Part shown: one piece after another, positions 31,756 to 35,641 of the stretch
Position numbering within the stretch: position 1 is the first letter of the stretch
How the letters are laid out: each line of letters begins with the position of its first letter
Assembly: GCA_947453415.1 (NCBI GenBank)
Contig: CANGGG010000028.1
Location: 1-36,413, forward strand
Direction: 5' to 3'
Length of the DNA stretch: 36,413 bases
Source of the DNA: Bacteroidota bacterium
GTDB taxonomy: Bacteria; Bacteroidota; Bacteroidia; UKL13-3
The notes under the pieces: generated by a model
Told to the model about the DNA's origin: nothing
The model's database searches: none
The model's input: the letters and a program-made list of their open reading frames with translations, nothing else
Position numbers and translations under genes: made by a program

Positions 31756-31788
31756 ATGGCAGGTGTATGAACTTAATTTAGTTTCAAA

Positions 31789-31834
31789 GTTCCGTGGGAA
31801 CGAAATATATTTAGCAACGGGTTTTAACCCGTTG
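31789..31834. repeat. Pair of short palindromes, REP-like
   Basis: GTTCC-GTG-GGAAC (31789-31801) is followed 13 bp later by CAACGGGTT-TT-AACCCGTTG (31815-31834), a perfect 9-bp stem with a 2-nt loop. They lie in the 173-bp gap between the convergent permease and lolA-like genes. There is no T-run, so they are not simple terminators. Confidence 0.7.
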
Positions 31835-31928
31835 GAAATTAAACAAGCACCTACGCAAATATTTATGGATTTTTGTAAGATTATTTTTTATAGAAAATAG
31901 TACAAAAACTAACAGCAAATAATTTGTT

Positions 31929-34336: not shown

Positions 34337-35059
34337 ATGTTTTTTACTATGCAAAAAGTAAAGCTTGAATGCGAAATGTGCGACTCAAAAGCCATTTCAT
34401 TTATGAAATTCTGTAATCCTGAGGAAGTACATGCAGTTAGTACCGGTAAGTCATGTGGACATTATAAAAAAGGACAAGCCATTTTCTATGAAGATAATTT
34501 GCCCCTTGGAATATATTGTATAACAAAAGGAATTGTTAAAATTACTCGTAGCAATAATTTTGGTAAAGAGCAAATTTTGCGCTTTGCCAAAGAAGGTGAG
34601 TTTTTAGGTTATCGTGCCGTTATTGCCGAAGAGCCCTTAACCGCTACAGCTACTTGCATTGACGATGTAACAGCTTGTTTTATTCCACGCCAAGTATTCT
34701 TGGATTTGCTGCAAAGCAATGCTGAAATAAACAAACAAATGTTTAAAGCACTTTGCCACGACATGGGTTTAAACAATGAAAAAGTTCAAAGTTTAGCACA
34801 AAAAAGCGTAAGAGAAAGAGTTGCTGAAACTATTTTATATTTACATCAAACTTTTGCTACCAAATCGGTAGAGGAGGAGCCAGTTATTCCTATTAGTTTA
34901 CCTCGCGAAGATTTGGCTAACATAGTTGGAACCGCAACTGAAACTTTAATTAGATTACTATCAGAGTTTAAATCGGATAAGTATATTGACTTTGAAGGAA
35001 AAAGAATTAAAATAATAAACAAGGAAGCGTTAGAACGAATTTCACACGCTACTGTATAA
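34337..35059 (+). CDS. Crp/Fnr-family transcriptional regulator
   Basis: 240 aa. The cyclic-nucleotide-binding-like beta barrel spans ~35-130 (YKKGQAIFYEDNLPLGIYCITKGIVKI ... GEFLGYRAVIAEEP), and a long dimer helix covers ~135-175. The winged helix of the HTH_Crp type ends the protein: ISLPREDLANIVGTATETLIRLLSEFK, then IDFEGKRIKI. The N-terminus carries Cys12, Cys15, Cys26 and Cys40 (CEMC ... FC ... SC). Cys clusters at this place bind an iron-sulfur cluster in FNR, so O2 or redox sensing is possible but unproven. Start could also be the second ATG (34349). The target genes cannot be read from here. Confidence 0.92.
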   Translation: MFFTMQKVKLECEMCDSKAISFMKFCNPEEVHAVSTGKSCGHYKKGQAIFYEDNLPLGIYCITKGIVKITRSNNFGKEQILRFAKEGEFLGYRAVIAEEPLTATATCIDDVTACFIPRQVFLDLLQSNAEINKQMFKALCHDMGLNNEKVQSLAQKSVRERVAETILYLHQTFATKSVEEEPVIPISLPREDLANIVGTATETLIRLLSEFKSDKYIDFEGKRIKIINKEALERISHATV

Positions 35060-35065
35060 ATTAAA

Positions 35066-35171
35066 TGAGGCTGTATTAAAAGTTTTAAAAAGCTCGTCAG
35101 TTCGAGCGTAGTCGAGAACTTAACAATAACATTTCGATTCCGCTCAATGTAACAATACCTATTGAGGCTGT
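35066..35171. mobile_element. MITE-like insert of 88 bp with 9-bp direct repeats
   Basis: TGAGGCTGT occurs at 35066-35074 and again at 35163-35171, flanking 88 bp. The insert carries two imperfect inverted halves: AGTTCGAGCGTAGTCGAGA (35099-35117) and the complement of bases 35132-35150 match at 13 of 19 positions around a GAGCG..TCGA core. The insert holds no ORF. The second direct repeat forms the left arm of the terminator hairpin after the crp-family gene, so the insertion looks as if it split that terminator and left it repaired. Confidence 0.55.
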
Positions 35172-35194
35172 CTTTTGAGGCAGCCTCTTTTTTT
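35164..35194 (+). terminator. Terminator of the Crp/Fnr gene
   Basis: GAGGCTG and CAGCCTC pair over 7 bp around a 10-nt loop, followed by eight T. It lies about 105 bp after the Crp/Fnr stop because of the insert upstream of it. Confidence 0.85.
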
Positions 35195-35218
35195 ATTTTA
35201 AACATCTAGATATAAACT

Positions 35219-35641
35219 ATGAATAACAAAATGTATCCTTGCTTGTGGTTTAACGGAAATGCAAAAGAAGCAGCAATTTTTTATTGCAGCATTTTTAGCA
35301 ACTCAAAAATTCTTTCTGAAAATCCAATGGTTGTAAATTTTGAATTGAATGGAATGAAATTTATGGGTTTAAATGGTGGACCAATGTATCAATTTTCACC
35401 TGCTAATTCATATGTTATTGAATGTAATAATCAAGAGGAAATAGATCATTATTGGTATAAATTAGGACAAGATGGAGTTTATGGTCAATGCGGTTGGTTA
35501 GAAGATAAATTTGGTGTTTCGTGGCAAATTATTCCAACTATTTTGGGTAAGTTAATGTCCAATCCCAAAAAATCACAAAGTGTAATGGCAGCATTTATGA
35601 AAATGACAAAATTTGATATTGAAGCTTTAGAAAATGCTTAA
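35219..35641 (+). CDS. VOC-superfamily PhnB-like protein
   Basis: 140 aa. It opens MYPCLWFNGNAKEAAIFYCSIF, the PhnB / 3-dmu-9-type start (PCLWF..NAEEA..FY..IF), continues with FMGLNGGPMYQFSPANSYVIEC and EEIDHYWYKLGQDG, and has CGWLEDKFGVSWQIIP, the conserved C-terminal strand. It is slightly short for the family, mainly in the first loop. Members have the glyoxalase/bleomycin-resistance fold; function here is unknown. It is convergent with rodA: the stops are one base apart and no terminator lies between. Confidence 0.88.
   Translation: MNNKMYPCLWFNGNAKEAAIFYCSIFSNSKILSENPMVVNFELNGMKFMGLNGGPMYQFSPANSYVIECNNQEEIDHYWYKLGQDGVYGQCGWLEDKFGVSWQIIPTILGKLMSNPKKSQSVMAAFMKMTKFDIEALENA

Follow-up and report, generated by a model that had tools for sequence, protein, structure and literature searches.

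The window, the whole 36,413-nucleotide stretch of a Bacteroidota genome analysed here, carries a gene which we take to encode a Crp/Fnr-type regulator, the family name being adopted from a sequence-only reading of this DNA. A short repeated element begins 7 bp past its stop codon (Table 1). It opens with the left end GAGGCTGTATTAAAAG, which a spacer separates from a REP; next come a second, inverted REP and the hairpin GAGGCTGTCT-TTTG-AGGCAGCCTC, followed by seven T. Its terminal inverted repeats, GAGGCTGTCTCAAAAG, enclose the inverted REP pair, and the hairpin lies at the right end. The copy in the window measures 121 bp, about 11 bp of the central spacer being absent by comparison with most aligned copies. 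The region 35055-35200 is predicted to fold into a two-tier structure that is more stable than 200 of 200 shuffles on each strand (z of -4.2 and -3.3), and an Rfam scan of 34900-35350 returned just two chance-level matches, far under the gathering scores. The gene after the element (35219-35641) is 83-84% identical to its homologues in genomes G004 and G008, as against 94-96% for the gene before it, a difference that suggests a recombination breakpoint between the two genes.

The sequence-only reading had described 9-bp direct repeats around an insert of 88 bp containing two inverted halves. Both descriptions agree with the present analysis: TGAGGCTGT occurs at 35066-35074 and 35163-35171 with 88 bp in between, and the inverted halves are the two REPs. 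As had also been noted, the right repeat begins the left arm of a hairpin, of 10 bp and followed by the T-tract. Within the element, TGAGGCTGT corresponds to the beginning of the left terminal repeat and to the inner arm of the right-end hairpin, and GAGGCTGTATTAAAAG at the left also forms an inverted repeat with CTTTTGAGGCAGCCTC at the far right end.

Table 1. Features of the element and its upstream gene in the window.
Feature	Position	Strand	Basis or remark
Whole element	35067..35187	+	Copy alignment; boundaries from empty-site comparison
Left terminal inverted repeat, GAGGCTGTATTAAAAG	35067..35082	+	Resembles IS1182 ends; covaries with right end; contains the left 9-bp repeat of the sequence-only reading
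REP palindrome 1, GTCAGTTCGAGCGTAGTCGAGAAC	35096..35119	+	47 genome matches at ≤3 mismatches; reversed control 0
REP palindrome 2, inverted, arm variant CATT/AATG	35130..35153	-	Copy alignment
Right end, terminator hairpin GAGGCTGTCT-TTTG-AGGCAGCCTC	35164..35187	+	Fold and covariation; contains the right 9-bp repeat of the sequence-only reading
Right terminal inverted repeat, CTTTTGAGGCAGCCTC as read on the + strand	35172..35187	-	Pairing with left end; IS1182 end match
T-tract completing the terminator	35188..35194	+	T-tract retained at loci 2 and 3
Gene taken as Crp/Fnr-type regulator, native terminator replaced	34337..35059	+	ORF; matched at 82-96% identity in the other nine genus genomes

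The element is short, non-coding and repeated at several loci, with a consensus of about 142 bp. Since a hairpin pattern of fixed loop length missed most copies, they were collected with a profile that included copies from sister species, and 45 rows scored 40 or more over no fewer than 85 model positions. The 45 matches to the element of about 120-145 bp correspond to about 38 loci once we group the orthologues, the rows including orthologues counted repeatedly and a few weak or partial matches, of which L014 is the weakest; the row L133 falls within a called ORF. In the window's own genome, at least 31 places, the window included, match a 181-bp query at E ≤0.001 (40 of 79 candidates scored); five of these are long matches, again including the window, and most others cover the REP only. 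The spacer between the REPs is common to the aligned copies, which indicates that the element spreads as a whole unit. Many copies have a degraded left end, which in 8 of the 20 that were aligned pairs with the right end at fewer than 8 of 9 positions. The window region was also used as a query against 40 genomes, with 10 candidates scored per genome; outside the genus, the matches to the element were short and consisted of REP parts and, in G025, of 28 bp from the end hairpin. In the species genome collection, a scan with a strict pattern led to three contigs.

Several individual loci show further rearrangements. At L128:1768-2106 (G000:C59), an additional insert of about 200 bp interrupts the copy; in G008, the copy next to that gene (L134) has no such interruption. 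Solo end hairpins that lack REPs are present at L123-L127 and L129; they may be minimal elements or what remained after deletion between the two direct repeats of the element, and a BLAST comparison among the retrieved loci found no orthologous pair bearing on such deletions. In the orthologous copies L004 (G000:C7) and L090 (G004:C165), the terminator loop is inverted, GAGGCTTTCCTTTTGGGATAGCCTC in one and GAGGCTATCCCAAAAGGATAGCCTC in the other, apparently a natural hairpin-loop inversion. The palindrome CCGATAGCTATCGG, or a near-match to it, sits at an equivalent place within one REP at L086 (REP 1) and at L088 and L089 (REP 2), which suggests another small palindromic element that enters REPs. 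Another repeat dispersed in the genus, GTTCCGTGGGAACGAAATATATTTAGCAACGGGTTTTAACCCGTTG, has a copy at positions 31780-31840 of the window; in G001 (L141, L171), the stretch from the neighbouring permease-like gene to the IS1182 copy described below holds tandem units of about 105 bp, as judged by eye.

Five loci were compared with relatives in search of sites empty of the element, and four were usable, the right flank of the relative not being syntenic at the fifth (L091). At these four of five loci, the relatives have an ordinary, unrelated terminator hairpin at the position of the element, and the flanks are retained up to the A-tract and from the T-tract onwards, with no duplication. At the crp locus, all four close relatives (G001, G004, G007, and G008) carry AAAAAAGCCTTGATT...AATC(A/G)AGGCTTTTTT directly after the gene, G002, G003, G005, and G006 have other ordinary hairpins, and G009 carries the element reversed, in the orientation opposite to that of G000. 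At locus 2, the element is present in G000 and G001, and hairpins of the AAAAAGCCAT...TGGCTTTTT type are present in G004, G008, G007, and five more distant species (G002, G003, G005, G006, and G009); their retention in the distant species indicates that the native terminator is ancestral. At locus 3, G001 has the native hairpin AAAAAGGCACAT...ATGTGACTTTTT, G000 the element in forward orientation, and G004 the element reversed, and the flanks TTTAA(C/T)AAAAAGGC and CTTTTT(N)TTTTAGTAATG are alike in all three; this locus is not polarised by an outgroup, since in G008 and the distant species the flanks do not align on both sides. Finally, at locus L075, the element of G008 corresponds to the native hairpin AAACAAACCATTC...GAATGGTTTGTTTTTTTT in G000, G001, and G004, to another hairpin in G002, G003, and G006, to none in G005 and G009, and to something else in G007. 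Both orientations are thus found at one target twice, at the crp locus (G000 and G009) and at locus 3 (G000 and G004). Read from these alignments, the element at the four loci substitutes for a different hairpin over the interval between the A-tract and the T-tract, and the T-tract at 35188..35194 is most likely host sequence remaining from the replaced terminator.

These comparisons bear directly on the proposal of the sequence-only reading that a MITE duplicated a 9-bp target on inserting into the terminator. The exact 9-bp direct repeat around 88 bp is what such an event would leave, but the repeat is part of the element in its copies at other loci. The two 8-nt arms are identical in 4 of 20 aligned copies and differ at no more than 2 positions in 12 of 20 (19 of the 20 being copies elsewhere), and they resemble GAGGYTGT at every locus. 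They behave as an ageing part of the element, whereas a duplicated target would vary from locus to locus. For 22 copies, direct comparison of the 10 nt flanking each side gave a mean of 3.4 matches in 10, a figure that comes from AT-rich sequence, has no random expectation beside it and includes one mislocated right end (L003). Moreover, the predicted empty site, a terminator with a single TGAGGCTGT, is contradicted by the different, repeat-free terminator of all four close relatives, and none of the loci compared shows a locus-specific direct repeat around the element with one copy of it at the empty site. No terminator was split by the element, whose hairpin stands where the relatives have another. 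Target duplication can thus be given next to no credence. The sequence-only reading had explained the harmlessness of the insertion by a duplication that keeps one full hairpin; it probably comes instead from the element's own end, a hairpin of similar strength adjoining the T-tract.

The ends of the element point to a family of parents. In G001, an IS at C14:124-1916 has ends that match the end pattern at 17 of 17 and 16 of 17 positions, and its 532-aa protein scores 452.7 bits against the 270-bit cut-off of the IS1182 transposase model. A related protein is found in 2019 plasmid records, the best of them being ISMsp1 (60.8% identity). Three of the 12 best of these 2019 records were examined, L183 (ISMsp1), L184, and L185; these IS1182 relatives from other Bacteroidota have the same ends with at most 2 changes in 16 (GAGGCTGTCTCAAAAG/GAGGCCGTCTCAAAAG, GAGGCTGTCTCAAAAT, and GAGGCTGTCCGAAAAG). 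Each of the eight ends of these four ISs is predicted to form a hairpin (-15.2 to -21.8 kcal/mol) that a T-tract follows or that closes into one, and the element's terminator hairpin therefore looks like an inheritance from an IS1182 end of this kind. These ISMsp1-like ISs (L121 in G001 and the three relatives) thus share with the element ends of the form GAGGC(T/C)GTC..AAAA, each bearing a hairpin with a T-tract; unlike the element, they carry a transposase gene, and no REP doublet was noted in their ends. In the Phocaeicola record, AAAAATATGAAAA and TTTTCATATTTTT just outside the IS are perfectly complementary as inverted repeats, which is what insertion into a stem would produce. The G001 copy lies between CAACAAAA and TTTTCGT, where a related G000 repeat (L182) has a long hairpin, this comparison being paralogous. 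A transposase search of 58 genomes matched 6 at E ≤1e-20, with no match to the G001-type transposase at this threshold in the window's own genome, and G001, a sister genome, is alone among the 10 genomes of the genus in having an IS1182 copy with matching ends. The IS1182 transposases of G009 and G006 were rejected as parents, their ends being different.

Insertion into terminators is known in this family. In the accessible part of the report on TnSha1/IS1272 from staphylococci, this IS1182-family element inserts into hairpins, five of seven sites being terminators confirmed by RNA-seq (Furi et al. 2016, PMC4923244). It deletes part of the stem-loop with blunt cuts and leaves no target duplication, it inserts in either orientation, and it can insert repeatedly into one target (PMC4923244).

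Another possibility is that mobility resides in the REP doublet, which a RAYT would move as a REPIN, and that a neighbouring terminator was dragged along. The genome indeed has 47 REP matches, plain REP doublets exist, and one protein (L011) scores just above the cut-off for REP-associated transposases (81.6 against 80 bits). However, the retrieved L011 flanks contain no REP, the nearest on the contig being about 5 kb off. At the empty sites, the exchanged segment ends at GAGG/CCTC, which in the window copy lies 29 and 34 bp outside the GTCA...TGAC boundaries of the REPs, and these ends match IS1182, all of which makes this reading very improbable. Separately, an IS200-like transposase gene at L009:462-2444 (58.4 against 55 bits for the IS200 type) is flanked by four REPs, GTCATCCTGAGCGGAGTCGA, with the same core as the window REPs and different arms.

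Alternatively, terminators could be swapped without any transposase, by recombination or template switching between hairpins bounded by A- and T-tracts. The breakpoints do fall in these tracts, and the loop inversion between L004 and L090 suggests that template switching at hairpins occurs here. Yet the tracts are just 5-8 bp long, the replacing sequence at each of the four loci comes from a single family whose ends are of IS type, and it occurs in both orientations, as reported in the accessible text on IS1272 (PMC4923244). We therefore regard such an exchange as very improbable.

The transposition reading also agrees with where the element lies. With gene positions taken from simple ORF calling at 80 aa, a gene 3' end is found on at least one side in 43 of the 45 rows and within 50 bp in 40 of them; 23 rows lie between convergent genes and 2 between divergent ones. 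Where the neighbouring genes are co-directional, the right hairpin is directed away from the upstream one in 16 cases and the opposite way in 3 (13 and 3 without repeated orthologues). Plain REPs of the same genome have a 3' end within 50 bp in only 7 of 26 cases and convergent neighbours in 2 of 26, this set being what remained of 30 REP matches with loci, among the 47, after removal of 4 overlapping the element; several of its members are in clusters, and L014 is counted both there and among the 45 rows. The hairpin-bearing unit is thus placed at gene ends in a way that plain REPs are not.

The right-end hairpin is predicted at -15.6 to -18.3 kcal/mol, compared with -14.4 to -19.8 kcal/mol for the replaced hairpins with their native A-tracts and -8.4 to -15.4 kcal/mol once these are trimmed, the L075 hairpin retaining its own A/T pairs. 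Its arms covary, with 5 of 9 pairs changed on both sides and 92.2% of cells paired; among 500 shuffles none reached the paired percentage or the covariation score and 3 reached the pair count, and further pair types were not outstanding, their number being reached by 85 of 500. The end-to-end stem covaries as well (8 of 14 pairs changed on both sides, 83.9% paired, no shuffle reaching any of five measures), although conservation as IS ends alone could keep the two ends alike, and kinship among the copies weakens the control for both stems. From these predicted structures, we infer that the element hairpin would terminate transcription in the cell.

Compared across genomes, the element is a repeated unit with IS1182-type ends at the site of an ordinary terminator hairpin of its relatives, with intact flanks and no target duplication, so the proposal of a mobile, MITE-like element in a terminator stands. 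Very likely, it is an IS1182-family miniature element, non-autonomous and built around a REP doublet, which exchanges the terminators of its host for its own. From the shared ends, we infer that it would be mobilised by an IS1182 transposase. The transposase would recognise the GAGGCTGTCTCAAAAG ends and target a terminator stem-loop, cutting near its foot on both sides, so that the hairpin would be discarded and the element joined between the host A-tract and the host T-tract. The right-end hairpin and the host T-tract would then form a new terminator. In a reversed element, pairing of the two ends would probably serve as the terminator together with the host T-tract, and the REP doublet would be carried as cargo.

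Several known systems come close to the element. IS1272/TnSha1 shares the loss of a hairpin, the absence of duplication and the use of both orientations, but it is a full IS or a composite transposon, and a miniature form, a REP core or a rebuilt terminator are not described in the accessible part of its report (PMC4923244). The available text on SPRITE of Streptococcus pneumoniae also presents a repeated terminator-like element near gene 3' ends that is enriched between convergent genes, but its terminal repeats are AAAA/TTTT and its empty site could not be found (PMC3049150). As far as the accessible accounts of REPINs go, they likewise consist of two REPs in inverted orientation, whereas the doublet of the element is enclosed in IS1182-type ends and moves with them (PMC3116915, PMC6006769). 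The IS1182-derived MITEs of Methanosarcina acetivorans (ISMac2 group) are miniature derivatives too, of 160-169 bp, but are listed with direct repeats of 4 and 0 bp, and the accessible part of their description does not mention terminator replacement (PMC3852290). By title and abstract, none of the matches listed in the open-licence literature concerned an IS1182 miniature element replacing terminators, preprints being outside the scope.

The findings extend terminator-replacing insertion beyond the staphylococcal IS1272, for which it was described, to a miniature element of Bacteroidota. They also provide natural before-and-after pairs of terminators, in both orientations, with which terminator replacement could be measured, and they caution that a direct repeat at the ends of an element is not necessarily a target duplication. 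A broader idea, which we hold tentatively, is that the element represents a self-compensating class of mobile DNA that would seek out and remove host terminators and supply an equivalent from its own end and the host T-tract. Insertion would then be nearly neutral, and terminators might turn over as replaceable parts, while the REP core could make the element doubly mobile, through IS1182 at its ends and a RAYT in its middle. A suggested reason why such an element is tolerated is that it gives back what it destroys.
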